Below are positions 1-19,379 of a stretch of DNA of 64,000 nucleotides, in pieces (position 1 is the stretch's first letter; each line of letters begins with the position of its first letter). The position numbers were made by a program, and so were the translations under genes. Origin of the DNA: Muricoccus nepalensis (GTDB taxonomy: Bacteria > Pseudomonadota > Alphaproteobacteria > Acetobacterales > Acetobacteraceae); contig NZ_RCZP01000019.1 of the NCBI RefSeq assembly GCF_006438825.1, positions 1 to 64,000 of the forward strand, written 5' to 3'. The notes under the pieces were generated by a model. The model did no database searches. It saw nothing but the letters and a program-made list of their open reading frames with translations, and was not told where the DNA came from.

Positions 1-476
1 CAGAAGGCAGCAGGGGCGGCCAAAAAGCCGCGACAGCGGCGGAGCGGGACGAGCGTGAGGCGCTTGGCCGTTCTCGTGGCGGCTTCGGCACCAAGGTCTG
101 CGTCATCGCGGACAGCGCAGGCCGCGCTGTCGCCTTCTCACTGGCGCCAGGGCAAGCGCACGAGCTGCCTTATGCCATGCCCCTTCTCGCCACGCTTCCC
201 GGCGCGCCGCTCTGGGTGGTGGGCGACCGAGGCTACTCCAGCCATGCCTTCCGCCAGCACGTCTGGGACCTCGGCGCACGCCCCGCGATACCGCCCAAAA
301 GGAACGAGGCGCCGGTCGCCTGTCGAGACTGGATCTACAACAACCGCAACCACGTCGAACGCCTCTAGGCCAGGCTTAAGGAGCGGCGCGCCGTCGCCAC
401 GCGCTACGAGAAAACCGCCTCCAGCTCTCTCGGCGTCCTACACCTCGCCGCCACACTCGACTGGCTCAAGCGCTAA
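1..476 (+). pseudogene. IS5-family transposase remnant, 5' end outside window, internal stop
   Basis: Reading from base 3, the frame encodes the C-terminal half of an IS5-type DDE transposase. It shows VVGDRGY, which carries the second catalytic Asp, and then the family signature Y-x2-R-x3-E-x6-K (YNNRNHVE...RLK). A TAG at 366-368 falls inside the six-residue gap of that signature, where relatives usually have an aromatic or other residue (TGG to TAG would explain it). The frame stays open after the stop, through RLKERRAVATRYEKTA to TAA at 474-476. The gene is therefore broken just before the last catalytic-region residues and is probably inactive. The start lies left of the window. No terminal inverted repeat could be identified with confidence. 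Confidence 0.85.
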
Positions 477-872
477 CAGGACCTAACTATGCCACGGAGT
501 AAACACGTAAAGAATTTGGTGGTCGTGCTCTTCTTCCAACGCGATCATAAATTTGGGGATGCTATCTCCGCCGCCCACGAACTGGCGGAGTTTAGGCCGG
601 TCAGTGCTTCAAAAATCTCAGGGAGCGGCAACCGGCCATGACGGGAATGATGTACGGAATGATAAGTTATAAGTGACCAAAAAGCATGCGACGCTCTGGA
701 CACTATTGCCGGCTCAAGCCTACGCTTCGGAAGCCTGAATACCGAAGAGAGTTTGGCCCTCATTTGGGATAGTCCAACCAGGGCTCACGCAGCTCCTTCA
801 ACGCGTGCAATGCCGTTTACCATCGTTGCTCACTTGCCCACTGGCATGTGGTCAGCTTAGCCGGAAGCTCGA
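477..872. other. 396-base gap, less GC-rich, no recognised gene
   Basis: This stretch lies between the transposase remnant and the next gene and has a visibly lower GC content than the rest of the window. The only reading frame worth noting is 489-641 (+): ATG, 50 residues, with AGGA about seven bases upstream. It begins MPRSKHVKNLVVVLFFQ and resembles no family I know. It could be a fragment of an older gene. No repeat, tRNA or clear promoter was seen. Confidence 0.4.
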
Positions 873-1178
873 ATGAACGATGTCGGTGGCGTCGATCCGG
901 AAGCAACCCTGGACTCCGAAATGGAGAGGATTAGAGAGGACATCGTTCGGATCGGCGCCCTCTACGACCTGGTCTCACGCTTGGAGACCCCACACGCCGA
1001 AGACCTCGATCGTATCGCTACCATGGCCGCCGAAGCGGCGCGGGCACTTCGATCGGTAGAAGGCGCGGCGGCGAACCGCCGCAGGACGCGGTTCTCCTCG
1101 ATCATGTTGTCTTTTCCTCAGCTGAATCTTCCGGCGATGTTCGATCCGGCGGTGCTGGACGACGACGACCTCGATTAA
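873..1178 (+). CDS. N-terminal piece of the giant NTPase frame (or separate small protein)
   Basis: A 101-residue acidic, helical protein, rich in Glu/Asp/Arg and ending in a D-rich tail (LDDDDLD). The ATG is preceded by GGAAG at 863-867. It has no recognised domain. It lies in the same frame as the large protein that follows: after the TAA at 1176-1178 the frame stays open for 19 codons (starting LDDAAIQVSEAHRRLES) up to the GTG at 1236, and reads like one continuous amphipathic helix. I infer that it was originally the N-terminus of a single protein of about 1778 residues spanning 873-6209, now cut by a stop. The alternative is a genuinely separate small partner protein. A shared operon is certain if the locus is expressed. 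Confidence 0.55.
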   Translation: MNDVGGVDPEATLDSEMERIREDIVRIGALYDLVSRLETPHAEDLDRIATMAAEAARALRSVEGAAANRRRTRFSSIMLSFPQLNLPAMFDPAVLDDDDLD

Positions 1179-1235
1179 CTCGACGATGCAGCGATACAGG
1201 TCAGCGAGGCTCACAGGCGACTCGAGTCAGCGAAG

Positions 1236-4200
1236 GTGCGGCTGAGGGACGCTATTAATCAGGATGAGTTTGAGGAAGTCGCCCACCTCAACTCGGAGGC
1301 GAAGGCCGCGCAAGAGGCTGGGACCGCGGCAAGATCGCAAGCGGCTCAGCGGCTTTCTGCCCGAGTCACCGGCTCGAACGATGTGGGGGGTACGCCGACG
1401 GCCTTGGCCGATCCGGCGCCGAGCCAACTGGAGCGTTCTCCGGCGGAGGCTCCGTCCAAAGAGACAGGGCTGTCCATCCTGGCGGCCGATCTGGCCATCG
1501 GGCAGAAGGCTGAGTTGGTCAGCAACCAGGAAGATGCTTCCTTCGCATCAGACGCCACCACCACGTCGCTGGGACTTTCAGAGGAACTGTCCGACAGACT
1601 GCCCGAAGACAAGGATGACGGCATGGTCGCCGCCACCCCGGCGGAGTTCAAGCCGTTTGAGGCGGCGGTCCTGCCGGTCGACGCGGAGGAGAGCGACGCG
1701 CTGGCGGCCCTCGCCTTGGACGTGCCGTCGTCTGAAGAGGCGGAATGGCAGCCCGAGCCGCTGCCGAACGCTCTGCTGCGGGCGCTCGAGAGTGAGCGCC
1801 TCGGCCTCGCCACCGCGGTTGCCGAGGTGACTGCGGTGGGTGAGGTGCCCGAGTTGCTGAAGGCCGCCCTTCCGCTCGTGGCAATGGCAATGGTAGCCGA
1901 CACCAGTGGCGAATTCGACGATCGCGCACGCGATGCGACGCGTCACGCGCTGGACGCACTGCCGGAAGCTCCTGTGGGCGACACGACCCGTCTCGCCCTT
2001 GTCCTCCTGCTGCCAGCGGCGACCACTCTCGCGCTCCTCGCGCCCGGTTCGGGGCAGGCAAGCCTTCTGGCGGCCATGTTGGGGAATGGGGGGAACGATC
2101 CGGGCCATGCAGACAGCCTGCCCCGGCTACGCGACCTCGCCCAAGAAATGTACCAGGGCCGGCACGTGGCCGGCACGGCGCTGATCTCCGCCTCAGCCCT
2201 CATGGCCGGCCTGGTGACGGAAGAGGCATGGCGCCAGGAGCTCGACGCAGCTTCCAATGACATCGCGGCTTGGGCGCGGCAGCAGTTGGCCCGCAGCATC
2301 CGCTACGCCGCAGCGACGGATGTCTGGCGCGAGATGCTGCGACCTGGGGGCACGTTCTACGCCCACTTGCAGGTCGCGGCACAGGCCGCGACCGGGCGGG
2401 CCGAGGAGGTACGGCGCTTCGTCACCACCATCGATATCGATCGCGAGATTCGGCAGGTCGAGCGCCAGGTACGCGGGCTCAATCCGGCCCGGCGATCCCC
2501 GATCTCGGGACCTGCTTACCGGGAGCTCCACGACGCCGTCGAGGAGGCGGTGCATCACCTGCGGCATTGGCTCTCCATCGTCGAGCGCGCGCCGTCGCGT
2601 GCGGAAAGATCTCGAACCAAGCCTATTGCTGATCTGCGAGCCCGCCTGCTCTCGCGCATCCGCGCTGCGGAAGAGGAGCTGCTCCGGCTCGACGGCCTGC
2701 TGGCCGCCGGTGTGCCGTGCGGCACGGCAGCGCTCCGGCGCCTCATGAGCGTTCTGGAAGGCGCGACACTCCGGCGCGCCGCGCCCTCGCTCGACGCGTT
2801 GCTCGGGCGCGACCTAGTGGGGGTACCGGGCATCGTGTTCGGTGCCGGCTGGAGCCGTCAGCACCCGCCACTAGAGGAAGTTCGAGAGGAGCTGTTCGCC
2901 CTTGCCCAGGCGCCGGCACCGCCTCCGCTTGCCCAGTCTGCCCGCCGGCGCATCGCCGCTGGCGACTACCTTGGCGCGGAGTTGGTCATCGAACTGACCG
3001 GGGACGCCGAGGAACGCCCTGTCCTCCAGCGCGAGTTGCGCAATGCCCTTGAGCGCCGCAAAGCCGACGAGGCGCAGGCGCTCGACGAGAAGCATACGAA
3101 GGTGGAGGAAGCGGAACGCGCCGGGCGGCTGGATGCCGGCTTGGCACATGAGCTGACCGAACGACTCCTCCGTGTACGGGAGCAGGTGGCCGCGGCGGTT
3201 CCGGCGAGCGCGGCGGAACTCTTTGCCGAGGCAAGGCGGCATGTGGCGCTGGCCGACGCAAAGCTGAGCGAGCGCGCCGTCCTGGCACGCGACCGTATCA
3301 CCCTTCGCCTTGACCAGCTGCGCCAGCTACCCGAGCCGAACCGTGACAGGGTGGAAGGGCTACTCGAGGCTGGCCAGTTCGCCCTCGCGGAGGACTTGGT
3401 CGAGCGGCTGGAAGCAGGCGAGCCGCTGGACCCGGATGTGCCGGTGCCGGTGGAGGAAGCCTTCGCCGCTTTCTTCCCGGCGGGCGCCGAGCGGCTGGCC
3501 GGTTGGCTACGCGGCCGGCGCACGGCCATGCGCGACATTGCCGACGGCACCTGCGCCGTCCCGCAGGACCTCTTCGCGCCTGGCCAAGAGCTCACCGCGG
3601 ACCTGCCAACGCTGGCGGAAGCCTGGGCCGACTGTGTGCGGGAGAACTCGCGCAACGCCCTGCAGGACGCGTTGCTGCGCCTTTTCGCCGCCTTCGGCTT
3701 CACCGATCCCGAGCTACCGGGCTTCGCCACCCCTGCGCGGAAGGTCTCCGAAGCGGTGCTGCAACTGCGCGTGCGCGCGCTGCGGGACCGAGACACGGCG
3801 GTGCTGCCCCAGTTCGGCTCGGAGGCGGAGGGGACCTATCGCCTCCTCTGCCTGTGGCACAAGCGCGACGCCGAGGACATCGCGCAGGCGCTGGCGGCGT
3901 TGCCCGTCAGCAGCGCGCCGACGATCGTGCTGTTTTTCGGCCCGCTCGACCACGAGCAGCGACGCCGCCTCGCCGCGCTCGCGCGCGCGGACCGGCTGCG
4001 CTCCACCATCGTTGTGGACGAAGTACTGGCGCTGCATCTCGGACTGCTCCCCCGTGGGCGGCTGATGGCCCTTTTCGCCTGTACTCTGCCCTTCACCGAT
4101 AGCCGGCCATGGGCCGACACCGGGACGCCGGCCCCGGAGATGTTCTTCGGCCGCGCCCGTGAACTGCGCGCCGTCACCGCCCGCAGCGGCGAGTTTACCC

Positions 4201-6053
4201 ATCTTCTCTATGGCGGCCGCCAGCTCGGCAAGACGGCGGTGCTGCGGCAGGTCGAGCGATCCACCGCAGCGGACCCGGACACGGTCGCCCGCTACGTCAG
4301 CATTGCGGAAATAGGCTTGCAGCAGCCGCCGGCCGAGCTGTGGCCGCGCTTGGCCGAGGAGCTGGCCCGTGCCGGCATCGCGGTGCCCCGCGCCAGCGGC
4401 GCGCAAGGCGTGCGCACGGCGGTCCGGGAATGGCTGGACAAGCGGCCCGGACGGCAGATGCTGATGCTGCTGGACGAGGCGGACGCCTTCTTCGAGAAGG
4501 ATCGGCAGGCAGGCTTCACCGTCACCTCGGCCCTGCGCGATCTGACTGTCGACACGGATCGGCGGTTCAAGCCGGTTTTCGCCGGGTTGCGCAACGTCCA
4601 GAAGCTGGCGCGGGACCCGAACAGCCCCATCGCCCATCTCGGCGCGCCCCTGGTGGTTGGCCCGTTGCTGCGCGGCGAGGAGCGGCGGCAGGCGGAGAGC
4701 CTTGTGCGCTGGCCCTTCACGGCGCTCGGCTACCATCTCGACGAGGCCGTCGTCTCGCGGATCCTCGCCTTCGCCAACTACTATCCCAGCCTGATCCAGG
4801 TGGTCTGCCAGCGCCTGCTCCGGTCGCTCCGCCAGCAGAGCGGGAGCGGTGGGCCTCCCTGGATGGTGCGGATGGAGGATGTCGAGCGCGTGCTGGAAAC
4901 GCCGGAGGTGCGCACCGCTGCTTTCGAGCGCTTCCGTATCACCCTCGAGCTGGACCCTCGATACAACCTCCTGACGTTGCTGATGGCCAACTTCAGCATG
5001 GACGAACCAGAGCTGCTTGCCAGCGGCATCGACGGCACCATGCTGCGCGCTCTGGCCGCAGACGCGTGGCCGTCCGGGTTCCCGGCAACGTTCGCCGATG
5101 ATGCCTTCGAGGCGCTGCTTGACGAGATGGTCGGGCTGGGGCTGCTGCGGGGGGTAACGGGCGCGCACTACGCGCTGCGGAGCGCGAACCTTGCGCATCT
5201 CATCGGCAGCCCCGGCGAGATCCGCCGGCAGCTGGAGAGCTTCGCCAGCCGCCCTGCTCCCGCGATCAGCGACCCGCTGGAGATGCGGCGCATGATCGGT
5301 GGGCGCCCCGGGTTGCTGACCGCGCGACAGGAGGGACACTTGCTGGCCCCTGGCAGCGGCGTCGCGATCCTGGCAGGCACAGTGCTTTCGGGAGTCGGAA
5401 ACTGGCGGACCGCGGTGGACACCGCGTGCCGTATCGCGCGCGAGCGTCACGGCCGCGACGTCAACGCCCGCGTGCTGGGCGGCCCGTTCGGCCTTGACCA
5501 CTTCCGCGCTGCGCTGGCCAAGACGCGGTCCACGGGCTCCACCCTGCACCTCGTGCCGCCCGCGGCACCCTGGGATGCGGCCTGGGTGGAGGAGGCGGTG
5601 CGACGGGTTCGCGCCGCTGCAAAGGGTGCTGCCTCGCTACCGGTTCTGTTCCTGGCCGATGCGCAACGTGCCTGGGAATGGGTGGCCGATCCCCGCCGCA
5701 CCGCGGTGCTGGACGAGGGGGATCCCGCCTCCCGGGTGGTGGAGCTCACCGCCGGCCCCTGGAGCCTCGACGACGTCAACCTCTGGGCAAACGACGCTCC
5801 CCTCCGCCTCCCGGGAGACGCCATCATGCGGGTCACGGGCGGTTGGGACCTCCTGATCCGTCAGTTGGAGGCGCTGCCGCCGGCCGGGCGCGCCGCGCCG
5901 GCCGCCGAACTCGCGCGGAGCCTTCTGGACCCTGGATCAAACGGCGATCCGTTGGAGGATCTGCGGGCCCTGCCGGAGGTGGCCGAGACATTGCGGGCGC
6001 TCGGGGACTGCCAGGACGGAAGGCTCGACGGCGAGGTGGTCGAGGCTGCCTAG
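1236..6053 (+). CDS. Giant coiled-coil P-loop NTPase (STAND/AAA-like), interrupted frame
   Basis: 1605 residues from a GTG that has no convincing ribosome site. Residues 1-900 are low-complexity and coiled-coil-rich (many Ala/Glu/Arg helices), with no recognised domain. A nucleotide-binding module follows: FFGRARELRAV is a typical lead-in, the Walker A GGRQLGKTA is near residues 993-1001, and the Walker B MLMLLDEADAF is near 1075-1085. A winged-helix-like stretch (FEALLDEMVGLGLLRG) comes before a C-terminal region of unknown fold. This layout is seen in STAND/AAA-type conflict NTPases, but I cannot name a family. TAG at 6051-6053 ends it, yet the frame continues sensibly to 6209. The frame is likewise open upstream to the TAA at 1176-1178. 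The gene is therefore either decaying, misread or read through. It is followed by a HEPN-motif partner gene. Confidence 0.7.
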   Translation: MRLRDAINQDEFEEVAHLNSEAKAAQEAGTAARSQAAQRLSARVTGSNDVGGTPTALADPAPSQLERSPAEAPSKETGLSILAADLAIGQKAELVSNQEDASFASDATTTSLGLSEELSDRLPEDKDDGMVAATPAEFKPFEAAVLPVDAEESDALAALALDVPSSEEAEWQPEPLPNALLRALESERLGLATAVAEVTAVGEVPELLKAALPLVAMAMVADTSGEFDDRARDATRHALDALPEAPVGDTTRLALVLLLPAATTLALLAPGSGQASLLAAMLGNGGNDPGHADSLPRLRDLAQEMYQGRHVAGTALISASALMAGLVTEEAWRQELDAASNDIAAWARQQLARSIRYAAATDVWREMLRPGGTFYAHLQVAAQAATGRAEEVRRFVTTIDIDREIRQVERQVRGLNPARRSPISGPAYRELHDAVEEAVHHLRHWLSIVERAPSRAERSRTKPIADLRARLLSRIRAAEEELLRLDGLLAAGVPCGTAALRRLMSVLEGATLRRAAPSLDALLGRDLVGVPGIVFGAGWSRQHPPLEEVREELFALAQAPAPPPLAQSARRRIAAGDYLGAELVIELTGDAEERPVLQRELRNALERRKADEAQALDEKHTKVEEAERAGRLDAGLAHELTERLLRVREQVAAAVPASAAELFAEARRHVALADAKLSERAVLARDRITLRLDQLRQLPEPNRDRVEGLLEAGQFALAEDLVERLEAGEPLDPDVPVPVEEAFAAFFPAGAERLAGWLRGRRTAMRDIADGTCAVPQDLFAPGQELTADLPTLAEAWADCVRENSRNALQDALLRLFAAFGFTDPELPGFATPARKVSEAVLQLRVRALRDRDTAVLPQFGSEAEGTYRLLCLWHKRDAEDIAQALAALPVSSAPTIVLFFGPLDHEQRRRLAALARADRLRSTIVVDEVLALHLGLLPRGRLMALFACTLPFTDSRPWADTGTPAPEMFFGRARELRAVTARSGEFTHLLYGGRQLGKTAVLRQVERSTAADPDTVARYVSIAEIGLQQPPAELWPRLAEELARAGIAVPRASGAQGVRTAVREWLDKRPGRQMLMLLDEADAFFEKDRQAGFTVTSALRDLTVDTDRRFKPVFAGLRNVQKLARDPNSPIAHLGAPLVVGPLLRGEERRQAESLVRWPFTALGYHLDEAVVSRILAFANYYPSLIQVVCQRLLRSLRQQSGSGGPPWMVRMEDVERVLETPEVRTAAFERFRITLELDPRYNLLTLLMANFSMDEPELLASGIDGTMLRALAADAWPSGFPATFADDAFEALLDEMVGLGLLRGVTGAHYALRSANLAHLIGSPGEIRRQLESFASRPAPAISDPLEMRRMIGGRPGLLTARQEGHLLAPGSGVAILAGTVLSGVGNWRTAVDTACRIARERHGRDVNARVLGGPFGLDHFRAALAKTRSTGSTLHLVPPAAPWDAAWVEEAVRRVRAAAKGAASLPVLFLADAQRAWEWVADPRRTAVLDEGDPASRVVELTAGPWSLDDVNLWANDAPLRLPGDAIMRVTGGWDLLIRQLEALPPAGRAAPAAELARSLLDPGSNGDPLEDLRALPEVAETLRALGDCQDGRLDGEVVEAA

Positions 6054-6209
6054 GTCGTTGCCTACTCCGAACTTGGGGAGGAGACGGTCGCCCGCGTGCT
6101 GGCCTGGGCAAGTCTGACTGGGCTTGTCGGGCGCGGGGCGGAAGGCTTGGTGCTCGGCAAGGAGCTGCGCCTCGGCCTTGCCCGACCCATGCCAGCCGGC
6201 GCGGCGTGA
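6054..6209 (+). other. In-frame continuation of the giant NTPase after TAG, ending in GTGA overlap
   Basis: After the TAG at 6051-6053 the same frame stays open for 51 codons to TGA at 6207-6209. The translation looks like ordinary protein (VVAYSELGEETVARVLAWAS, then a hydrophobic, Leu/Gly-rich helix-like end). Its TGA overlaps the GTG start of the next gene in the sequence GTGA (6206-6209), the standard arrangement for coupled genes elsewhere in this window. I read this as the original C-terminus, separated by a nonsense change or a sequencing error. Confidence 0.6.
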
Positions 6210-7231
6210 TCGGGGTTTGGTCGCTCCCTGGCCCGTCGGCGCTCGTAGCGCGCGTCGTGGCCGAACTTGCGGATGGCCGGCAGTGCCTGCCTGTTGGCGC
6301 TGCGCCGCCCGGCTTCCGTCGGGCGGTCGAGGACGCGCTGGCGGTTCGGCAAATCCGCCTTCGTTTGGTCTATGACGATCCTGTCCTTGATCCATGGGGG
6401 TTGTTGCGGCGCGAGGCCGAACTGCCGCGCGCCGAGGAGAGGCTGCCGTCGGGCGTTTGGTGGGTGGACGGCGTCGAGGCGGCAAGGGCCGAGGCCTGGA
6501 GCGAGGTTGCTCGCACGCTGGGGGAGGCGATGCGCCACGACGCGCCCCACCGTCGCGCGCTGATGGTCGTACCGCTTCCGCCTGGCGGTTCGCCTGTTAC
6601 TGGGCTCGACCTGGCCTGGCTGCATGCGGAACCGCTCGACCGCGTCGATTTAGAGGTCGCCGCCCGCTACGCGGTAACGGCAGCAGAGTGCCACGGCACC
6701 CTCGCGCGTCTTCGCGTCGAGTTGTCCGTAGAAATGGCAAGTGCGCGACTACCCGCGACCCGCGCGCTCGACACGCTGGACCATTGGATGGGGGCGCCGG
6801 ATGACGCACTATGCGACCCTGTACGCTTCCTGTGCCATGCGCGGGCGGACGGTGCTGAGCCGACCCTCGCCGAGTTCGACCTATGGCGCATTCACCACGC
6901 CGTGCTCCTGGACGCGATTGAGCGCGAGAGGCTCGTGATCGTGCGCGCGAACCGTGGCCGTTGGCGCATTCCCTACGACATCCCGGAGAACGAGGGACGG
7001 CCAGCCAAGCGGGTGCGCGCGGCTGAGCTGCTGGAGTTGAAGCACCTCTGCCTGCAGCTCCGGCAGAGCGGCGAGCCGCTTCACTCGCCGCTCTTGAGCC
7101 GCCTGCAGATGTTGCGAGAGATGCGCAATGCCCTGAGCCACCTGGAGCCCGCGTCGATCGCCGAGGTGTCGGCCCTGCAGGTGGGCACAGCACGGGTTGG
7201 ATCGGCCGCAACGCGGCCTTCAGGCGCGTAG
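6206..7231 (+). CDS. HEPN-motif protein paired with giant NTPase
   Basis: 341 residues starting at a GTG that overlaps the end of the upstream frame by GTGA. The N-terminus (VIGVWSLPGPSALVARVV) resembles a P-loop strand-loop-helix that has lost its Lys/Ser, and VWWVDGVE could match a Walker B-like strand, so a degenerate NTPase fold is possible. The C-terminal 60 residues are helical and contain REMRNALSH. RNALSH at about residues 307-312 fits the R-x4-H active-site motif of HEPN ribonucleases, including the Asn that often follows the Arg. HEPN proteins act as RNases in toxin-antitoxin, CRISPR and abortive-infection systems. An RNase effector controlled by the neighbouring NTPase is my inference; the family was not identified. 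Confidence 0.65.
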   Translation: MIGVWSLPGPSALVARVVAELADGRQCLPVGAAPPGFRRAVEDALAVRQIRLRLVYDDPVLDPWGLLRREAELPRAEERLPSGVWWVDGVEAARAEAWSEVARTLGEAMRHDAPHRRALMVVPLPPGGSPVTGLDLAWLHAEPLDRVDLEVAARYAVTAAECHGTLARLRVELSVEMASARLPATRALDTLDHWMGAPDDALCDPVRFLCHARADGAEPTLAEFDLWRIHHAVLLDAIERERLVIVRANRGRWRIPYDIPENEGRPAKRVRAAELLELKHLCLQLRQSGEPLHSPLLSRLQMLREMRNALSHLEPASIAEVSALQVGTARVGSAATRPSGA

Positions 7232-7254
7232 AAGGAAGACAGGCCTGGCTTTCC

Positions 7255-7662
7255 TCAGTAGTCGCTGAGCGCCACCGCACCCTCGCGGCGCATGAAGATC
7301 CAGCAGCCTCCCCCGGCGGCGGACTGCACGCGCACGCGGAGCGAGCGCTCGGCGTCGCCGAAGTCGCCGGTCCAGCCGAACTCGAGGTCGAGGCCGCCCG
7401 CCGCCATCGCGCGCTCGATCCGGCCGCGGTAGCGCGGGCCGTCCATGCAGGGCGCGACTTCGCGGAAGAAGTGCAGCCCGAGGCGCGGCCGGTCCCCCGA
7501 GCCCGAGAGGCGCCGCTCCGCCCCGCTGTAGACCCGGACCACGCCCTCCGCGTCGAGGCGGATGGCACCGAAGGGCAGGTCGTCCAGGGCCTTGATGGGC
7601 AGCCCCTCCACGGCGCGGGCAAGATCCGGCTGGTCGAAGCTGGGCAGGGGCGGGACGGGCAA
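7255..7662 (-). CDS. pyp: Photoactive yellow protein (PYP) homologue, blue-light sensor
   Basis: 135 residues. The alignment to the Halorhodospira PYP is clear by eye: LDDLPFGAIRLD, HFFREVAPCMDGP, then a C-terminal strand ending CWIFMRR. Cys72 matches the Cys69 that carries the p-coumaroyl chromophore. Tyr45 and Glu49 match Tyr42 and Glu46, which hold its phenolate. Thr50 is Ser and Arg52 is Ser, which could shift the colour. The length fits the family (125 residues). I chose the TTG at 7662 because GAGGAG lies six bases upstream and this start gives the expected N-terminal cap; the frame remains open further upstream, but that part overlaps the kinase. The gene lies 10 bases behind the PAS-rich kinase and is probably its co-transcribed light input or output partner. 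No tyrosine ammonia-lyase or coumaroyl-CoA ligase gene is in this window. Confidence 0.88.
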   Translation of the reverse strand: MPVPPLPSFDQPDLARAVEGLPIKALDDLPFGAIRLDAEGVVRVYSGAERRLSGSGDRPRLGLHFFREVAPCMDGPRYRGRIERAMAAGGLDLEFGWTGDFGDAERSLRVRVQSAAGGGCWIFMRREGAVALSDY

Positions 7663-7672
7663 GGGCGTCTCC

Positions 7673-10600
7673 TCAGGCCGGATCGGAAAAGAAGGCCAGG
7701 CCGACAAGATGGGTCGGCCGGGTGCCCCCGTCATCGGCCAGCGGCAGCAGCAGCCGTTCGAAGTAGAGCGGCTCGCCGCCGTCGCCGAAGCCGAAGCGGG
7801 CGTAGTCGTGGCAGGGCACGCCGAGGCGGGCGCAGCGCCGGTAGGCGTCGTCGAGGCCGCCGAACACCTCGTCGCCGTCGAGCTCGCCCCCGGCCTCCTG
7901 CCCGACCAGCGGCCGGCCCAGGCGCCGCTCCAGCGCGGTGCCGACGCGGACGAAGCGAAGGCGCGGCTCGCCGCCCTCCGCGCGCTCGAGCGCGACCGTG
8001 AAGGCGTGGTCGCCGCCGCCGATGCCCGCCCCGTCGAAGGCGTCGGGCGTGGGCAGGCCCTCGCCGCCGCCCGCCGCGTCGCGGAGGGCGCGCCAGGCCA
8101 GGTAGGTCTGGCGCAGCTCGGGTCTGCTCAGGCGCATGAGCATCCTCTCGTGCAGGGGGGTGGGCAGGCGGCCGAGGGCGGCCAGGACCCGGCGCGACAG
8201 CTCGGCGGGCGTGAAGGGCTTGGCGAGGATCACCTCGCTCGGCGGGCTGGCGGGATCGCCGTAGCCGCTGACGAAGAGGATGGGGATGCCGGGCCGGCTG
8301 GCGCGCAGGCGGAGCGCGAGGTCCGGCCCGCGCCCGCCCGGCATGGTGATGTCCGTCACCACGAGGTCGAGGCTGGCCGCGGCGGAGGCCTGCACCATGG
8401 CCGAGGCGAGTCCGCCGGCCTCGATCACCTCGTAGCCGAGGTCGCGGAGCTGCGTCGCCGTGACCAGACGGACCTGATCGTCGTCGTCCACGACGAGGAC
8501 CGTCGCGGAGCCGTGCAGCGCCGGGTTCGGCTCGACCTCCACCGCGGCCGCCGCCACGGCGGCCTCGCCGGCGGCGCGCGGCAGCCAGATCTCGGCCGTG
8601 GTGCCCTCGCCGGGCGCGCTGCGCAGGCGGAGCACCCCGCCCGACTGCCGGGCGAAGCCGTGCACCATGGCGAGGCCGAGCCCGGTGCCCTGGCCGCGCG
8701 GCTTGGTGGTGAAGAAGGGCTCGGATGCCCGGGCCAGCACCTCCGGCGGCATGCCGGGGCCGCTGTCCTGCACGGAGACGACGACGTAGTCCTGCTTCGG
8801 GTCGAGGCCCTCCGGGCGCGCGGCGCCGGGCGCCGGCGGCGCGTTGCGGGCCTCCACGGCAAGGCTGCCCACGCCTTCCATGGCGTCCCGCGCGTTCACC
8901 GCGAGGTTCAGCAGCGCGATCTCGAGGCGGTGCGGGTCGGTGAGGACGGGCCAGGCGGTCGGGTCGGCGCGGAGCGACAGGGCGATGCCGCTGCCCACGG
9001 AACGCCGGAGCATCTCGTCGACCTCCTCCAGCACGCGGGCGGGCCCGACCACGACGGGGGTCAGGTCCTCGCGCCGGGCGAAGGCCATGAGCTGGCGGAT
9101 GAGCGCCGCCGCCCGCTCCGCCGCCTGCCCGCCGCCCCGCGCGAGGGCGAGGATCCCCTCGTTGCCGTGGGCCCGCCGCTCGATCAGCCTAAGGCTGCCC
9201 ATCACGGCCGCGAGCACGTTGTTGAAGTCGTGCGCGACGCTTCCCGTGAGCTGCCCCAGCGCCTCGAGCTTCTGCGCCTGGGCGAGGGCGAGCTGGGTCT
9301 GCTCGCGGCGCCGCATCTCGGCCTGGAGCTCCTCGGCGGCCTCGCTCAGCGCGCGGGTGCGCTCGGCGACCCGTGCCTCGAGCTCCGCGTTGGCGCGGGC
9401 GAGGGCCGCTTCGGCGTTCTTCCCCTCGGTGACGTCGATGTTGACGCCGATCACGCGCCGCCCGGCGGCGCCGCGGGCCGATCCGGCGCCGCCGCGGGCC
9501 GATCCGGCGCCGCCGCGGGCCGATCCGGCGCCGCCGCGGGCCGGGAGGACGATGCCGCGGCCGACCAGCCAGCGCACCCCGCCGCCCGGCAGCACGACCC
9601 GGTAGTCCGTCCGGAGCTCGCCGCCCTCGCGCAGGACGCGGGCGAGCTCGCCCTCCGCGCGGTCGCGGTCGTCGGGGTGCACCGCCGCGCGCCAGGCCTC
9701 CATGGAGGCGGTGGCGGTCGCCGGGTCGAGGCCGTGGAGGGTAAACTCGCGGTCCGACCAGCGCTGCGCGCCGCTCGCCACGTCCCATTCCCAGATGCCG
9801 ATGGCGGCGGCGTCCTGCGCTAGGCGCAGGCGCTCCTCGCTCTCGCGCAGCCCGAGCTCCGCCGCCCGCCGCTCGGTGACGTCGAGCTCGGCCACGACGC
9901 CGCCGATGACCTGCCCCCCGGCATCGCGGATGGGGGCCGCGTTGTTGAGGTAGAAGCGCCGCTCACCCGAGCCGAAGCGCGCGCACTCGACCATCTCGTC
10001 GCGCACCGTCTCGCCCCGGAGCAGCGCCCGGGCCATCGCCCATTCCTCCGCCCGGATCCGCTCGCCGGTCTCGGGCCACCAGCCCGCCCAGTCGGCATAG
10101 GCTTCCCAGCCAGTGGTCTCCGGCGGGATGCCCCAGAGCTCGCGGTTGGCGAGGTTGTCGCGCAGAATGCGGCCCTTGGCGTCGGCGATGATGACGCCGA
10201 CCGGCAGGGCGTCGAGCACGGCCGAGAGCGTCGCCTCGCTCTCGCGCAGCGCCCGCTCGGCCACGCGCTGGGCCGTGACGTCGACCAGCGCCTCGAGCAC
10301 GAGGGCGGGCGTTCCGTCCGCGTTGCGGCGCAGCGCCTTGTGGGCGGCGACTAGGACCTCCCGGCCGTCCCGCGTGCGGTGCCGCAGGTCGCCGGACCAG
10401 GCGCCGTCGCTCTCCAGCGCCGCCTCGATGGCGGCCAGCGGGACGGGGAAGGCAGTCCCGAGAAGCTCGTGCGAGGAACGGCCCACGGCCTCGGCCGCCG
10501 TCCAGCCGTAGAGGCGCTCGCAGCCGCCGGACCAGTAGCGGATGGTGCCGTCGAGGTCGCGGGCCATGAAGGTGCCGAGGTCGAGGGTCTCGACCAGGTC

Positions 10601-12904
10601 GTCCGGCCGCGCCGCGCGGGGACGCTCGGCCTGCTTGCGCGCGGTGATGTCGAAGGCTACGCCGCGCAGCCGCGCGGGCATGCCGCCCGGACCGGGCCCC
10701 GGATCGCCCTCGCCCATGGACTGTATCCAGCGGGTGCCGCCGCCCGACAGGAGGACGCGAAACTCGGCGACGAAGCGGCCGCCCTCGGCGGCGAGCCGCC
10801 GGTGGTCGACCAGGAAGGCGTCGCGGTCCTCGGGATGCACCCGGTCCAGCACGGTGGCGAAGTCGCAGCGCGCGTCGGGTGGCAGGCCGTAGAGGGCGCG
10901 GAAGCCGGGCGAGACCCGCGCCTCGCCGCCGGTGCCCGGGTCCTCCACCTCGAAGGTTGCGATCCGGCCGGCCTCGGTGATGCGGCGGAGCGCGGCCTTG
11001 CTCTCGGCGAGGGCGAGTTCGGCGCGCTTGCGGTCGGTGATGTCGAAGTCGATGCCGATCATGCGGGTCGGCCGCCCGGTGCCGTCCCGCAGCACCGTGC
11101 CGCGCGTCACCACCCAGCGCTCCCCGCCATCGGCCCGGCGCATGCGGAACTCGATGTCGTAGGGCGCCTCGTCGGCGAGCGCGGCGCGGAGCGCCGCCTC
11201 GACCCGCGGCAGGTCGTCTTCGTGGACGAGCGCGCGGAAATCGTCGACTGTGCCGCCGAAGGAGGCCTCGGACATGCCGAGCGCCGCCTCCAGCCCGCCC
11301 GACCACTGCACGGCGCCGGTGACCACGTTCCAGTCCCAGGAGAAGATCCGCGCCGCCCCCATGGCGAGGTGCATCCGCTCGTGCGCGTGGGCGAGCGCCG
11401 CCTCGGTGGCCTCCCAGCCCGAGAGGTCGACGACGAAGGCCGAGGCGGCGCCGACCGTACGGTTGTGGAAGGCGAAGAACATCAGCACCGGCACGCGCGT
11501 GCCGTCGGGGCGGACGTACTCCTTCTGGTAGGGCGCGCAGGCGCCGTTCCGCGCCGCCTCGGCGATGGCGGCCTCGTCGCGCCCGATCCACTCGGGCGGC
11601 GTCAGGTCGTCCCAGCGGATGCGGCCCGCGGCGAGATCCTCGCGCGTCATGCCGACGATGCAGAGGAAGGCGTCGTTGGCGGCGGTGACGCGCCCGCCCG
11701 CGTCCGACCGCACGACGCCGACGGGGCTCGCGTCGAACAGCGCGCGCGCCTCGGCGGCCGCGGCCTCGCGCGCCTCGGCGCGGCGCGCGAGCAGCGCGCC
11801 GAGCTCGTCGATCTCCCGCACCGCCGCCCCGGCCGGCGCGCCCGCCAGCCCGGGGTCGCCGAGGCGCCGGAGCGAGCGGGTCAGGCGGTCGGCGAAGAGG
11901 ACGCCGAAGACGAGGGTGACCGTGAGCAGGCCCGAGCCGATCAGGAGGGTGGGCAGCAGCGCCTGGCGGAGCGAGGCCTCGAAGGCGACCGCCGGCACGG
12001 TCACCTTCACCCAGTAGCCGGACTGCGGCGCCAGCGCGTAGGCCGCGTGCACCCGCTCGCCCTCTGTCGCGGTGAAGGGCGGGATGGTGCCCGCCGGCGG
12101 CCCGATCGCGGCCAGCACCTCGGCCGGCGGCTTGGTGGCCAGCGTCTCGCGGTCGCGCGCGGTGCGCGCCACGATGGTGAGCTGCCGGTCGAGGGCGGCG
12201 GCCACCGCGCCCGGCGGCATCCGCTGGTCGGTCAGCGTCGAGAGAAGCCGCTCGCGAGGGACGATCAGCCCGAGGACGTGCCGGATCGGCGGGGCCCCCG
12301 CGGGCCCGGGGGCCATGATCGGTACCGCGACGCCCACGGACCACTCGCCCACGCTCGGGCTGACGAAGAGGTTGCCGACGACGCTGCGCCCGGTGGCCAG
12401 CGCCTCGGCCGCCGGTCCGATGGAGAGGACGTCCGGCCGCTCGCCGGGCAGCCAGCTCGTGCTCAGCCGGATGCGCCCGTCGGGTCCGATGAGGTTCACC
12501 GCGCGGGCGCCGTAGGCCAGGCCAGCCGAGCGCATCTCGGACCAGAAGGTCGGAAGGTCCCCGCGCGCGAGGGAGGGCGAGCCCGCCAGGGCCGCCAGCA
12601 GGCGCTCGGCGCCCGCGAACTCACGGTCGAGCAGAAGGGCCATGGCGTGGGCGCGGGCAACGAGGCCCTCTTCCGCCCGCAGCCGCTCCGCGCGGTTCTG
12701 CTGCCAGACGGCGCCGCCCGCCAGCACGAGCAGGGGAAGGGCCGCCCCGAGGGCGAAGACCAGGACGCGGCGGCGAAGGGTCGGGGAGCGCCTCGGCCAT
12801 GCGGGCGCGTGGAAGCCCGACCGGGCGCTGCCGGCGGGGGCCGTCTCGGGGCACGGGCCCGGAGGATCCGCCCGGCGGCGCGCGACGATGTCTTTCAGCA
12901 CCAC
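7673..12904 (-). CDS. Membrane hybrid histidine kinase: dCache-like sensor, six PAS, HisKA, HATPase, REC, PAS_5
   Basis: About 1743 residues from GTG 12904. The frame is open to 13045, but the extra codons do not look coding and the start is uncertain. Order: transmembrane helix (about 41-65), periplasmic Cache-like sensor, second helix (about 313-337), then six PAS domains to about residue 1165, beginning at FDASPVGVV, AARIFSWDW, AGRIATFEV, DLGTFMARD, LDALPVGVI and DAAAIGIWEW. Next are HisKA with SVAHDFNN (His near 1222), HATPase with GTGLGLAMVHG, and a receiver with DDDD and phospho-acceptor LVVTDITMPG (near 1516). The C-terminus after the receiver is a further PAS_5-type domain (DYARFGFGDGG...). 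It is a sensor kinase that phosphorylates its own receiver and passes the phosphate on through an unknown Hpt protein. It sits directly upstream of the PYP gene, suggesting control by light or redox state. Confidence 0.85.
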   Translation of the reverse strand: MVLKDIVARRRADPPGPCPETAPAGSARSGFHAPAWPRRSPTLRRRVLVFALGAALPLLVLAGGAVWQQNRAERLRAEEGLVARAHAMALLLDREFAGAERLLAALAGSPSLARGDLPTFWSEMRSAGLAYGARAVNLIGPDGRIRLSTSWLPGERPDVLSIGPAAEALATGRSVVGNLFVSPSVGEWSVGVAVPIMAPGPAGAPPIRHVLGLIVPRERLLSTLTDQRMPPGAVAAALDRQLTIVARTARDRETLATKPPAEVLAAIGPPAGTIPPFTATEGERVHAAYALAPQSGYWVKVTVPAVAFEASLRQALLPTLLIGSGLLTVTLVFGVLFADRLTRSLRRLGDPGLAGAPAGAAVREIDELGALLARRAEAREAAAAEARALFDASPVGVVRSDAGGRVTAANDAFLCIVGMTREDLAAGRIRWDDLTPPEWIGRDEAAIAEAARNGACAPYQKEYVRPDGTRVPVLMFFAFHNRTVGAASAFVVDLSGWEATEAALAHAHERMHLAMGAARIFSWDWNVVTGAVQWSGGLEAALGMSEASFGGTVDDFRALVHEDDLPRVEAALRAALADEAPYDIEFRMRRADGGERWVVTRGTVLRDGTGRPTRMIGIDFDITDRKRAELALAESKAALRRITEAGRIATFEVEDPGTGGEARVSPGFRALYGLPPDARCDFATVLDRVHPEDRDAFLVDHRRLAAEGGRFVAEFRVLLSGGGTRWIQSMGEGDPGPGPGGMPARLRGVAFDITARKQAERPRAARPDDLVETLDLGTFMARDLDGTIRYWSGGCERLYGWTAAEAVGRSSHELLGTAFPVPLAAIEAALESDGAWSGDLRHRTRDGREVLVAAHKALRRNADGTPALVLEALVDVTAQRVAERALRESEATLSAVLDALPVGVIIADAKGRILRDNLANRELWGIPPETTGWEAYADWAGWWPETGERIRAEEWAMARALLRGETVRDEMVECARFGSGERRFYLNNAAPIRDAGGQVIGGVVAELDVTERRAAELGLRESEERLRLAQDAAAIGIWEWDVASGAQRWSDREFTLHGLDPATATASMEAWRAAVHPDDRDRAEGELARVLREGGELRTDYRVVLPGGGVRWLVGRGIVLPARGGAGSARGGAGSARGGAGSARGAAGRRVIGVNIDVTEGKNAEAALARANAELEARVAERTRALSEAAEELQAEMRRREQTQLALAQAQKLEALGQLTGSVAHDFNNVLAAVMGSLRLIERRAHGNEGILALARGGGQAAERAAALIRQLMAFARREDLTPVVVGPARVLEEVDEMLRRSVGSGIALSLRADPTAWPVLTDPHRLEIALLNLAVNARDAMEGVGSLAVEARNAPPAPGAARPEGLDPKQDYVVVSVQDSGPGMPPEVLARASEPFFTTKPRGQGTGLGLAMVHGFARQSGGVLRLRSAPGEGTTAEIWLPRAAGEAAVAAAAVEVEPNPALHGSATVLVVDDDDQVRLVTATQLRDLGYEVIEAGGLASAMVQASAAASLDLVVTDITMPGGRGPDLALRLRASRPGIPILFVSGYGDPASPPSEVILAKPFTPAELSRRVLAALGRLPTPLHERMLMRLSRPELRQTYLAWRALRDAAGGGEGLPTPDAFDGAGIGGGDHAFTVALERAEGGEPRLRFVRVGTALERRLGRPLVGQEAGGELDGDEVFGGLDDAYRRCARLGVPCHDYARFGFGDGGEPLYFERLLLPLADDGGTRPTHLVGLAFFSDPA
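9461..9547. repeat. 21-bp tandem repeat, about 3.5 copies, in the sixth PAS domain
   Basis: The unit GGCGCCGCCGCGGGCCGATCC is repeated almost perfectly, giving the protein heptad GSARGGA three times and a partial copy. It lies in the loop between the last PAS strands (after GRGIVLPA, before RRVIGVNIDVT). Because the unit is 21 bases, copy-number changes keep the frame. It is an expandable linker inside an otherwise normal PAS fold. Confidence 0.85.
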
Positions 12905-13482
12905 CAAGACCGCCCCCGCCCGAATGCTTCCCCGCAAGCGCCGCTCGCTGGCGCTTGGTAGGGCTTCCGTTGTCGTTGAGCAATCAAGAAGGACTTGGCG
13001 CGGGGCGAGAACCGGAGGGCGGAAGCCGGAAGAAGGGTGTCTCACAACCGGTGGTTGGTTGCTGGCCGGACCCGCCCCTTAACTTGGTGGTGGCGTCGGC
13101 AACTACATCCGTCATCCGCGGCAGAGGCAGGCGTGCTGTTGTTTCATCTACGGAACCAGGAACGTTCCTTTGCGACGCTGCGGGTGGAGCGAAGGCATGC
13201 TGGTGGATGGATTGCACCCGCCATGATTGCGACGGAAAGTCCGGTTTCGACCCGGAGAGTGTCGTAACGGCTAACGCCCTAAGCCAGCGGTGACGTGGCG
13301 ACGCGCGTGCCGGGAGGTTGCCCTGGGACTGGCTGGCGCTTCGAGGGACCTGCGGAGGACGGCCACGGCCCGCGCCGCCGGGCCCGCTTCACGCCTCCTT
13401 AAACGAGGTCGTGTAGGCTCCCGCCAAAGCTCCCGCCTGCGTCGACAGGGGCTTACCCTCACTCAGGCGAGCGTCCGAAGAC
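12905..13482. promoter_or_regulatory. Divergent control region between kinase (-) and chemoreceptor (+)
   Basis: About 580 bases without a convincing gene. The GTG-initiated extension of the kinase frame to 13045 reads like non-coding DNA. The stretch 13060-13270 has lower GC and probably holds the promoters for both directions. I could not assign -10/-35 elements or operators with confidence, and no clear sigma-28 motif was found before the chemoreceptor. Confidence 0.35.
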
Positions 13483-15513
13483 ATGCCCCACCCGCTCCGT
13501 TCCCTGGAGCCGCTTCGCGGCCGCCTGCGTCGCATCGGCATCGTGCCGCGGCTGCTCGTCGCGTCGCTGCTTGCGGTGGCGGTGGCGGTGGTCGCCGTCC
13601 AGGCCTGGACGCTGCGCGTGGCGCGGGAGGCCGGGCTGGAGGCCTCGCAGAAATCGCTCGGGATCAACCTGGCGGTGCTGCACCGTGAGCTCTCCCTCCT
13701 CGGCACCGAGTGGCGACTCACCGGGGACGGCACGCTCACCCTGGGCGGCGTTCCCGTGAATGGGCGCGAGGACCTGGTCGATCAGGTCGGCCGCGTCGCG
13801 GGCGGCGTCGCCACGATCTTCGCCGGGGACACCCGGGTGGCGACGAGCCTGCGCCGCCCCGACGGCGCGCGGGCGGTGGGCACGCAACTGGCGGCGGGGG
13901 CGGCGCGCGACGCCGTGCTTGGCCGCGGCGAAACCTACCAGGGCAGCGCCGAGATCCTGGGCGCGCCCTACCTGACCATCTACGAGCCGATCAAGGACGC
14001 GCGGGGACAACCGATCGGCATTCTCTTCGTCGGCGTGTCGCTCGCCCAGGCGCAGGGCGCGCTGGAGCGGATCGTGCGCGAGGCGCTGCTCGCGGGGTTG
14101 CTCGTCGTCCTCGTGGTGGGCGCCGTGCGCTGGTTCGCCCTGCACCGCTCCATGCGGCCGCTGGGCGAGCTCGCGGCGAGCGTCCGCGCGATCGCCGCCG
14201 GCGATCTCGACCAGCCCGCCCCCTGCGCCGACCGGACCGACCAGCTCGGGCAGATCGGCGGCGCGATCGAGGTCCTGCGGCAGATGGCGATCCGGGCGCG
14301 CGAGGCCGAGAAGGGCCTGCTCGTCGAGCGCGCGGCCAAGGACCGGCGCCAGGAGGCCATGGACCGCCTGACCCGCGACTTCGGCACGACCGTCTCCGGC
14401 GTCCTCGGCAAGCTGACGACCTCCGCCGAGGGCACGCGCGGCGCCGCGGACACCATGGCGCGGGCGGCGGAGGAGACGCGACTCTCCATGGAAGGAGCGG
14501 CCGAGGGCGCGGGCGTGTCGGCGCAGAGCCTCGCCGCCGTCGCCGCGGCCACCGAGGAGCTCACCGCGAGCGTGGGCGAGATCTCGCGCCAGGTGGGCGA
14601 AGCGTCCCAGGCCACCCGTGACGCGGTGGAGCGGGCGCGGGCCACCGACGCGACGGTCGAGGGGCTGCGCGAGGCGGCCGGGCAGATCGGCGAGGTGGTC
14701 CGGCTCATCTCCGACATCGCCGGCCAGACGAACCTGCTGGCGCTGAACGCGACCATCGAGGCGGCGCGCGCGGGCGAGGCGGGGCGGGGCTTCGCCGTGG
14801 TCGCGGCGGAGGTGAAGCAGCTTGCCAGCCAGACGGCGGAGGCGACGGGCCGCATCGGCGCGCAGGTGAGCGCGATCCAGGCGGCGACGGGCGAGGCGGT
14901 AGGCGCCGTGCGCGGCGTGGTCTGCACCATCGACCGGGTGAGCGAGATCGCGGGCGCCATCGCGGCCGCGGTGGAGCAGCAGGGCGTCGCCACGCGCGAG
15001 ATCGCCGTCCAGGTCCAGGGCATCTCCCGGATCACCGACGAGGCCACCCGGGCCATGCGCGAGGTGTGCGGCACGGCCGAGAGATCGGGGGCGATCAGCC
15101 GCGAGGTGCTGGCGGCGGCGGACGGCGTGGCCGGGCAGTCGGACGGGCTGCGCCAGGAGGTGGACCACTTCCTGGCCGCCGTGGGCGCCTTCCGCAGCAG
15201 CGAGGAGCGCCGCCGCTACGAGCGCATCCCGGGAGGCGAGGCGCCCGTCCAGATCCGCGGCGCGACTCACGGCACGGCCGCGCTGCGCGACATCTCGCTC
15301 GGCGGGGCGGCGCTCGTCGGCGGATGGCCCTGCGACGCCGGTGCGGAACTCCTCGTCGGCCTTCCCGGCGGTGGCGACGACCTCGTCTCGGCGCGCGTCG
15401 TCAGCTCGCGCCAGGGCCTCCTCGCCGTCGCCTTCCGCCAGGACGCGGCGACGCTGGAGCGCGTCGGCCGCGCGATGGAGACGCTCGGCTACCGCAGCGA
15501 GCGGGCGGCCTGA
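13483..15513 (+). CDS. Methyl-accepting chemotaxis protein with C-terminal PilZ domain
   Basis: 676 residues. A transmembrane helix (about 20-42) is followed by a periplasmic Cache_3/Cache_2-type sensor (the region with [16 protein letters not shown] and [10 protein letters not shown] is typical), a second helix (about 200-223), HAMP and a long coiled-coil signalling domain. The conserved hairpin tip is present ([20 protein letters not shown], then [11 protein letters not shown]). From about residue 575 it carries a PilZ domain: RRYER supplies the RxxxR motif and DISLGG the D/NxSxxG motif, both needed to bind cyclic di-GMP. The receptor would signal through CheW/CheA and could be tuned by cyclic di-GMP. 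The chemotaxis partner genes are not nearby. Confidence 0.92.
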
Positions 15514-15600
15514 GCCACCCGTGACCTAGCCATCCCCGCGGGCCGGCAGGGCCGCGAAGCTCCGTTGCCCCAGGGGACGGGAAGTGGCACCTCTCGGCGC

Positions 15601-17480: not shown

Positions 17481-17530
17481 GGGCCGGGCCGCGTGCCCGG
17501 GTGGCGCGGCGGGAAATGGGGGGCGTGAGC

Positions 17531-18748: not shown

Positions 18749-19379
18749 CGGCGCCGGCGGGGAGGGGCGCGGCCGGTTCATCACGCTGGAGGGCGGGGAG
18801 GGGGCGGGGAAGACCACGCTCTCCCGGGCGCTCGCGGTCGAGATCGCGCTGGCGGGGCACCCGGTGCTGCGCACGCGCGAGCCGGGCGGGGCGCCCGGCG
18901 CGGAGGCGGTGCGGTCGCTCATCCTCGACCGCGGGCCCTGGGACCCCGTGGCCGAGGCGATGCTGCACTTCGCCGCCCGCCGCGAGCACGTCGCCCGCAC
19001 GATCGTGCCGGCGCTGGAGGCCGGGATCTGGGTTGTCTGCGACCGCTTCGCCGACAGCACCCTGGCCTACCAGGGGGCCGGGCAGGGGCTCCCCCGCGAC
19101 GTCTGGGAGCGGCTCTGCGACCTCGCGCTCGGCGCGCTGCAGCCGGACCTGACGCTCGTGCTCGACCTGACGCCCGCGAGCGGCATGGCGCGCGCCCTCT
19201 CGCGCGGGGACGCGAACCGTTACGAGCGGCAGGAGGAGGGCTTCCACCGCCGCATCCGTGAGGCCTTCCTCGCGATTGCCGCGGCGGAGCCGGGGCGCTG
19301 CGCGGTGATCGACGCCGCCCGCCCGCCGCCCGAGGTGCTCACGGCGGCGCTGGCCGCGGTCGGCGAGCGCCTCGCGTGA
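18738..19379 (+). CDS. tmk: Thymidylate kinase
   Basis: 213 residues, phosphorylating dTMP to dTDP with ATP. P-loop EGGEGAGKTT (residues 18-27), REPGG that binds the substrate phosphate, the DRF motif (VVCDRFADSTLAYQG) and the lid stretch ARALSRGDANRYE are all present. It starts at GTG 18738 inside the end of the carboxypeptidase gene (11-base overlap) and its own stop overlaps holB by GTGA, so tmk-holB form a coupled pair as in many alphaproteobacteria. Confidence 0.95.
   Translation: MAPDGAGGEGRGRFITLEGGEGAGKTTLSRALAVEIALAGHPVLRTREPGGAPGAEAVRSLILDRGPWDPVAEAMLHFAARREHVARTIVPALEAGIWVVCDRFADSTLAYQGAGQGLPRDVWERLCDLALGALQPDLTLVLDLTPASGMARALSRGDANRYERQEEGFHRRIREAFLAIAAAEPGRCAVIDAARPPPEVLTAALAAVGERLA

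Follow-up and report, generated by a model that had tools for sequence, protein, structure and literature searches.

An uncommon bacterial gene pair, a large NTPase and a candidate HEPN ribonuclease, that is probably a cell-suicide arm of bacterial immunity

HEPN effectors under the control of an ATPase are already known as a kind. In type 1 systems related to BREX (bacteriophage exclusion), the DUF499 ATPase (Hma) carries an N-terminal HEPN domain of the Swt1 type (PMC12839542, PMC3710099), ATPases of the ORC/CDC6 kind occur in other defense operons and a HEPN domain has been found fused to DndF (PMC10853773), and four other HEPN systems are reported as validated (PMC13092281). Druantia type III has been described as a two-component DruH-DruE system (PMC13316683, PMC13192584), and a preprint on YprA helicases, with Druantia among its subjects (PMC12458937), does not use the word HEPN in its accessible main text. 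Another two-gene effector has been acquired by several immune systems (PMC12799240) and therefore provides a precedent for a portable module. Here, we describe a gene pair at positions 873-7231 of a 64-kb stretch of Muricoccus nepalensis DNA (the window, being the first 64 kb of the 94.6-kb contig NZ_RCZP01000019.1, with window base 1 equal to contig base 1), in which a very large nucleoside triphosphatase (NTPase) gene is followed by a shorter gene, gene 2, with a HEPN-type motif. An earlier reading of this DNA, made from the sequence alone, recognized no known system with such a pair; we found no description of an NTPase-HEPN pair in the open-license literature, most subscription papers lying outside that search, and the pair is apparently undescribed.

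We consider it likely that the two genes constitute an NTPase-controlled HEPN ribonuclease (RNase) that would serve as an abortive arm attached to several immune systems, both the defensive role and the RNase activity being predicted. This reading is based on the intact Walker motifs of the NTPase, the pairing of the genes, an invariant R-x4-H motif in gene 2, the defense genes found in the neighborhood of relatives, and the fusion of the NTPase to pPIWI-RE proteins.

RNALSH, near the end of the gene 2 product, had been taken by the sequence-only reading for the HEPN-type R-x4-H pattern, and the alignment of 16 gene 2 relatives (median pairwise identity 22%, range 15-87%) bears this out beyond chance, the R and the H of the motif being retained in 16/16 and forming the only invariant columns. 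The variants comprise RNALSH, RNALAH, RNRIAH, RNRLAH, RNKVAH, RNNLAH, RNILSH, RHKLAH, RDAIAH, and RRGMAH, with N following the R in 13 of 16 proteins and H, D, and R once each, so that the family conforms to the HEPN motif rule applied here (R-x4-6H with a polar residue, mostly N, D, or H, after the R). A profile was built from 12 members (alignment A3: the window, the sister species Pararoseomonas baculiformis, an Acetobacteraceae metagenome-assembled genome [MAG], genomes G122 and G536, Thiodictyon, Salinibacter, Methylocystis, Azospirillum, Bradyrhizobium elkanii, and two contigs of a viral collection), and it recovered the four members held out of it (Microvirga, Agrobacterium, Bradyrhizobium sp. 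186, and Streptomyces fungicidicus) at E 1.8e-110 to 4.9e-15. The Swt1-like HEPN family of Pfam (HEPN_Swt1) was the only recurrent family in A3, matched by 6/12 members with a best E of 6.2e-4; every other Pfam family matched at most one of the 12, and no housekeeping family was among the matches, in line with the earlier reading.

An AlphaFold2 model of gene 2 (from 5 sequences; predicted local distance difference test score, pLDDT, 72.2; predicted template modeling score 0.63) places R307 near the end of helix 295-311 and H312 just past it, with the next helix at 318-336. The HEPN motif has been described as spanning a helix end and the loop that follows (PMC3710099), and the model fits this description because its motif occupies the same position. 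The C-terminal helices and the placement of the motif are consistent with the four-helix HEPN bundle that the sequence-only reading proposed to look for; the fold search scored essentially the N-terminal part of the protein and gave no HEPN confirmation. The HEPN identity of gene 2 holds at the level of sequence, and the protein is probably an RNA-cutting enzyme.

The N-terminal part of gene 2 appears to be AAA+-like. Among structures of the Protein Data Bank (PDB), Foldseek ranked clamp-loader subunits and ORC1 highest for the model (E 2.4e-4 at best, with TM-scores of about 0.23), and the rows returned by VIA-align were mostly AAA+-type ATPases with Z at most 6.7, middling by the scale of that tool. 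The Walker A pattern is absent from the shared part of gene 2 in 16/16 members. Because an AAA+-like fold is combined with the lack of Walker A in this shared part, gene 2 has the appearance of an inactive AAA+ subunit bearing an RNase. Beyond the shared part, six of the 16 proteins are extended at the C terminus, and the extension has a P-loop pattern (Table 1); for the three scanned, Pfam placed it in AAA_33, which has a kinase-type fold. Such a kinase, joined to a HEPN protein, could work on the ends left by RNA cleavage. PADLOC returned no match for the pair in the members scanned, except for two weak partial ones to gene 2 of Salinibacter (PD-T4-5, E 0.008; PD-T4-2_B, E 0.018).

The STAND/AAA-like P-loop module that the sequence-only reading had seen in the large protein was found again, as GGRQLGKT and an LLDE within the Walker B segment, together with a Pfam match of the window NTPase to AAA_22 (E 6.5e-6, 26.9 bits with a cut-off of 27). 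Across nine NTPase cores from Pseudomonadota, Rhodothermota, Cyanobacteriota, and Actinomycetota (alignment A2), GGR-x-LGK and the DE of Walker B are invariant (9/9), and PE-x-F-x-GR and FGS...G...R are further conserved motifs. The A2 profile, which matches the window frame, was built with the P. baculiformis relative and without the window sequence. AAA_22 scored at or near its cut-off in the NTPases scanned, the best PDB match of the NTPase profile was CDC6 (E 0.0086), and the Thiodictyon NTPase matched NB-ARC of Pfam (E 0.0094). The large protein thus appears to be an AAA+ NTPase that may belong to the STAND/ORC-Cdc6 kind, although it is not proven to be a STAND protein; we use the label AAA+ NTPase only, because AAA_22 is near its cut-off, the CDC6 match stands at E 0.0086, and modeling of the core failed.

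Gene 2 adjoins the NTPase in 16/26 distinct loci. These 26 loci are not a random sample, having been found by searching with the NTPase family, apart from one (L039) found via gene 2 itself; two contigs of the Acetobacteraceae MAG (L005 and L006) enter the count as a single locus split by assembly, as inferred from their complementary query coverage, and four loci with partial NTPase matches (L022-L025, E about 1e-31 to 1e-33) were excluded from the count. In the window, the GTG start of gene 2 at 6206 shares 4 bases with the final TGA of the NTPase frame (6207-6209). The same 4-base overlap recurs in P. baculiformis, in L007, L026, and L029, and in S. fungicidicus; the two genes are 2-3 bases apart in Thiodictyon, Salinibacter, and Bradyrhizobium, and 92 bases apart in Azospirillum. 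As the overlap recurs among relatives, it fits the translational coupling proposed in the sequence-only reading.

The span given to the pair by that reading was correct and the pair is real, whereas two in-frame stop codons in the large gene had gone unseen. The open reading frame (ORF) caller splits the locus into frames at 873-1178 (101 amino acids), 1236-6053 (1605 amino acids), and a third ending at 7231; read as a single frame, 873-6209 comprises 1779 codons, terminal stop included, and is broken by TAA at codon 102 and by TAG at codon 1727. GTG 1236 is the sole in-frame ATG, GTG, or TTG within the 58 codons inspected past the TAA. A search with an intact relative (P0003) aligned the window copy over 873-6203 and likewise reported "1 TAG, 1 TAA". 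Since the NTPase of P. baculiformis is one open frame of 1781 amino acids and two in-frame stops stand here, the window gene is taken to be interrupted. The ratio of nonsynonymous to synonymous substitution rates between the window and P. baculiformis was 0.17 for the NTPase (1776 codons; the first 300-codon block was looser, at 0.43) and 0.11 for gene 2 (329 codons), and therefore both genes were under purifying selection and the damage is recent, unless the stops are sequence errors. Recoding of the stop codons was rejected, as two different stop codons are involved and the P. baculiformis frame is open. The window copy would accordingly be a recently damaged one, sequence errors remaining a possible source of the stops.

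Table 1. Features of the window locus and of related loci. Positions without a locus prefix are those of the window.
Feature	Location	Strand	Basis or remark
Transposase-like mobile-element remnant	1..486	+	Translations judged by eye (frames 1-486, 3-368), at contig start
Large NTPase gene, interrupted	873..6209	+	TAA 1176-1178 and TAG 6051-6053 in frame
Longest still-open NTPase piece, 1605 amino acids, with ATPase site	1236..6053	+	ORF caller; start GTG 1236
Match to family profile A2 (AAA+ core and C-terminal part)	3678..6044	+	E 2.8e-269 for whole frame
Walker A GGRQLGKT	4212..4235	+	Read in sequence; GGR-x-LGK invariant in 9/9 A2 rows
Walker B MLMLLDEAD	4458..4484	+	Read in sequence; DE invariant in 9/9 A2 rows
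Gene 2, 341 amino acids: P-loop-less AAA+-like domain and C-terminal HEPN-motif region	6206..7231	+	Open frame
AAA+-like alpha/beta domain of gene 2, residues 6-137	6221..6616	+	AlphaFold2 model, Foldseek, VIA-align
C-terminal helical region of gene 2, candidate HEPN domain, residues 219-336	6860..7213	+	AlphaFold2 helices 219-248, 278-287, 295-311, 318-336
R-x4-H motif RNALSH of gene 2, residues 307-312 (R307, H312)	7124..7141	+	Sequence and 16-row alignment
Gene 2 with P-loop extension	L007:13977-15587
Gene 2 with P-loop extension	L011:14718-16295
Gene 2 with P-loop extension	L016:14470-16119
Gene 2 with P-loop extension	L033:14466-16082
Gene 2 with P-loop extension	L034:14382-15971
Gene 2 with P-loop extension	L039:13929-15563
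pPIWI-RE-NTPase fusion, Azospirillum			3256 residues
pPIWI-RE-NTPase fusion, Bradyrhizobium elkanii			3100 residues
pPIWI-RE-NTPase fusion, Microvirga			10,185-base gene
pPIWI-RE-NTPase fusion, L027			3177 residues

Past the pair in the window, on the opposite strand (7673-13045), lies a 1790-amino-acid frame that by eye reads like a multi-PAS sensor kinase and that contains, near 9500, an in-frame repeat of ARGGAGS-type units, likewise judged by eye.

The distribution of the pair is patchy, and the pair behaves like a mobile cassette. The NTPase was found in 1/14 congeners searched and in 2/289 genomes of a class sample, own genome included, and on these counts a housekeeping gene was rejected. 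In a phylum sample of 398 genomes, the NTPase profile matched seven at E 1e-20, own genome included and four of them being L022-L025, and the gene 2 profile matched two (own and G536). Four NTPase scans of the viral collection led to the same two contigs. Among plasmids, gene 2 of P. baculiformis had no match and two more divergent gene 2 queries matched 5 and 10 records; one plasmid search returned 27 records, of which 17 were examined. Six of the other 10 share, or nearly share, their organism with an examined record (three of Bradyrhizobium elkanii and one each of Azospirillum ramasamyi, Methylocystis parvus, and Streptantibioticus), and the remaining four are from Streptomyces AD2-2 and Sinorhizobium medicae (three). 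Window positions 1-900 had no DNA match in the P. baculiformis contig L004, where the intact pair occupies 3826-10157, and positions 7101-20000 matched that contig over 88 bases only, at the end of gene 2.

Relatives of the pair stand near defense genes, as a neighborhood survey suggested by the sequence-only reading revealed: they lie close to DruE/DruH or McrBC, and some are fused to pPIWI-RE. The profile and PADLOC search for Druantia and pPIWI-RE covered selected neighbors, and the unannotated loci L037, L038, and L042 were outside it, save one gene each in L037 and L038. In four loci the NTPase forms the C-terminal part of a pPIWI-RE protein (Table 1), and gene 2 adjoins in all four. PprDinG lies upstream of the fusion in Azospirillum, Bradyrhizobium, and Microvirga, and PprRE, tested in Azospirillum, is present there. 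These fusions do not form one clade on the NTPase tree, that of L027 lying on a long branch. Together with the broken NTPase gene and the AAA+-like domain of gene 2, the fusions had not been foreseen from the sequence alone.

A DruE gene lies within 5 kb of the NTPase in 4/26 loci, three of the four with gene 2. The locus of the Acetobacteraceae MAG (L005:1-9208, L006:3112-7565) is a dense defense island, with DruH and DruE of Druantia type III upstream of the pair and McrB-like and McrC genes downstream. In Methylocystis, DruH and DruE come after gene 2, and in L026, a contig of the viral collection, a split DruE3 followed by a 185-residue frame precedes the pair, which is intact there (5220-11752). 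In genome G729 (L028:6195-13635), the DruE and NTPase frames overlap by 13 bases by the starts of the ORF caller; a transposase-like frame (by eye) directly follows the NTPase, and gene 2 was not found. As a baseline, DruE3 was detected in 9/299 genomes of a phylum sample and in 1/14 control genomes.

Other neighbors were also recorded. In P. baculiformis (L008:16981-19867), divergent from the pair, a 273-amino-acid frame without a Pfam match is followed by a UvrD helicase that has GajB-like and RTasHel matches in PADLOC. In Brasilonema (L010:14668-17952), a PLD-nuclease/SNF2-helicase protein follows the NTPase in place of gene 2, and in Burkholderia arboris (L037:14310-17138) and Cupriavidus (L038:14433-17246), which are without gene 2, the next protein after the NTPase has some 940 amino acids, with C-terminal matches to the HEC-07 defense family.

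Several results weigh against an NTPase-controlled HEPN ribonuclease acting in defense. Recognizable gene 2 is absent from 10/26 NTPase loci, and in a phylogeny covering 22 of the 26 NTPases the state of having gene 2 next door requires 5 changes, against 7.2 on average with shuffled labels and with 34/500 shufflings as low as 5, so that clustering is little better than chance; gene 2 may have been gained or lost repeatedly, or the profile may overlook some members. In the scan of the 12 A3 members the window gene 2 had no Pfam HEPN match, the HEPN scores for which bits are given (15.8 and 15.0) lie under the cut-off of 27.5, and window positions 6110-7228 (gene 2 preceded by 96 read-through bases) returned no Pfam or PADLOC match up to E 1. 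The structure search gave no HEPN confirmation, its VIA-align rows covering mainly residues 6-232 and barely sampling the bundle, so that the lack of HEPN chains among them carries no weight, and a profile search of gene 2 against the PDB gave two matches of no use (best E 0.12). The model of the NTPase core, built from 4 sequences, reached a pLDDT of 41.5 and was not used. Besides the pair, no defense system was found in the window, defense profiles having been run there on the pair genes only, and there was no NTPase match among 50,697 phage records.

If the NTPase-controlled RNase reading holds, invading nucleic acid would be sensed either by the NTPase itself, through its long N-terminal region, or by a partner system such as pPIWI-RE or Druantia. 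Binding of ATP would then lead the NTPase to oligomerize, the P-loop-less AAA+-like domain of gene 2 would dock on this assembly and bring HEPN domains into pairs, and the paired domains would cut RNA, so that growth of the infected cell stops. It is also quite possible, although we advance this with more reserve, that the pair is a portable suicide module joined to unrelated nucleic-acid-sensing systems, to pPIWI-RE by in-frame fusion and to Druantia by gene order. In that case, pPIWI-RE would be a guide-directed sensor, the abortive arm fired by it would cut RNA, and the ends so formed would be the target of the kinase-like domain of some gene 2 proteins (6/16). The fusion suggests that this PIWI family may set off an RNase, in place of or in addition to guiding DNA restriction, and the link to Druantia suggests a two-layer design, with DNA restriction first and cell suicide as a backup.

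Defense genes generally cluster in islands, and the pair could be an independent system, a passenger in the company of Druantia, pPIWI-RE, and McrBC without a functional link to them. This general clustering speaks for such a passenger, as does the fact that neither DruE nor pPIWI-RE was seen at most of the 26 loci (by annotations, and by PADLOC on selected neighbors), the pairs of the window and of P. baculiformis standing without either. Nonetheless, four in-frame fusions to pPIWI-RE exceed mere neighborhood, the frames of DruE and NTPase overlap in G729, and the 4/26 loci with DruE within 5 kb compare with DruE3 in 9/299 genomes of that phylum sample, albeit for loci that were not sampled at random; we thus regard a mere passenger as unlikely. 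A toxin-antitoxin pair, with gene 2 as an RNase toxin restrained by the NTPase, would agree with the tight coupling of the genes and with the frequency of HEPN toxins that have a neighboring antitoxin, such as HEPN/MNT (PMC7641770, PMC11586414). However, its very large size, its intact ATP site, and its fusion to pPIWI-RE at four loci set the NTPase apart from an antitoxin. Moreover, in the window both the reading frame and the motif of gene 2 are intact beside an NTPase gene with two stops; loss of the partner therefore seems survivable, as fits an effector that needs the NTPase. This last argument is weak, since the cell may still produce the 1605-residue piece of the NTPase and sequence errors may account for the stops, and overall we judge a toxin-antitoxin pair quite improbable.

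Gene 2 might instead be an inactive HEPN-like protein that binds RNA or acts as a scaffold, the effector being the NTPase assembly with other partners. The 10 loci in which other neighbors stand instead of a recognizable gene 2 are compatible with this, and the P-loop extension of six gene 2 proteins could be the active part. HEPN domains that have lost the motif are treated as inactive (PMC3710099), whereas in gene 2 the R and H are strictly conserved across 16 divergent proteins; as it is exactly these residues that are conserved, the pattern is active-site-like, and an inactive gene 2 appears very unlikely. We therefore retain the NTPase-controlled HEPN ribonuclease as the preferred reading, and the gene pair, uncommon among bacteria, is probably a cell-suicide arm of bacterial immunity.

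Compared with known systems, the pair differs from each. The known three-gene defense island of pPIWI-RE, a guide-binding protein, with a restriction endonuclease and a DinG helicase is linked to relatives through the fusion to the NTPase; in the 2013 description (PMC3702460), as far as its accessible main text goes, the word HEPN is absent and no such NTPase fusion is mentioned. The window locus itself was rejected as a pPIWI-RE system, there being no such Pfam or PADLOC match in 873-7228. Druantia type III adjoins the pair through DruH and DruE in the MAG and in Methylocystis and through a split DruE3 at L026, and at G729 a DruE overlaps the NTPase frame; the window locus was rejected as Druantia III as well, since the pair has no PADLOC match and the genome no DruE3 at E 1e-60. 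HEPN/MNT toxin-antitoxins are likewise small two-gene units with a HEPN RNase motif, but their partner is a nucleotidyltransferase whereas here it is a giant AAA+ NTPase, and no nucleotidyltransferase (MNT) was found in Pfam scans of four NTPases (window, L009, L011, and L012). BrxB and BrxF of BREX are AAA+ proteins without Walker motifs, as is the N-terminal part of gene 2, a likeness by description only (PMC12839542); a HEPN domain is unmentioned for BrxB in the accessible part of that article, whereas gene 2 carries the HEPN motif. DUF499 was not found in the four NTPases scanned with Pfam across at least their AAA+ region (window, E up to 1; L009, L011, and L012, E up to 0.05), which matched AAA_22 instead. 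The BREX-related DUF499 systems couple a STAND/ORC-Cdc6 type AAA+ ATPase to an RNase of the Swt1 group of HEPN domains within a defense operon, a design that the present pair may share; there, however, HEPN and ATPase share one chain and are accompanied by a methyltransferase and a helicase, whereas in the present pair the putative HEPN ribonuclease is a separate gene with an AAA+-like domain of its own.

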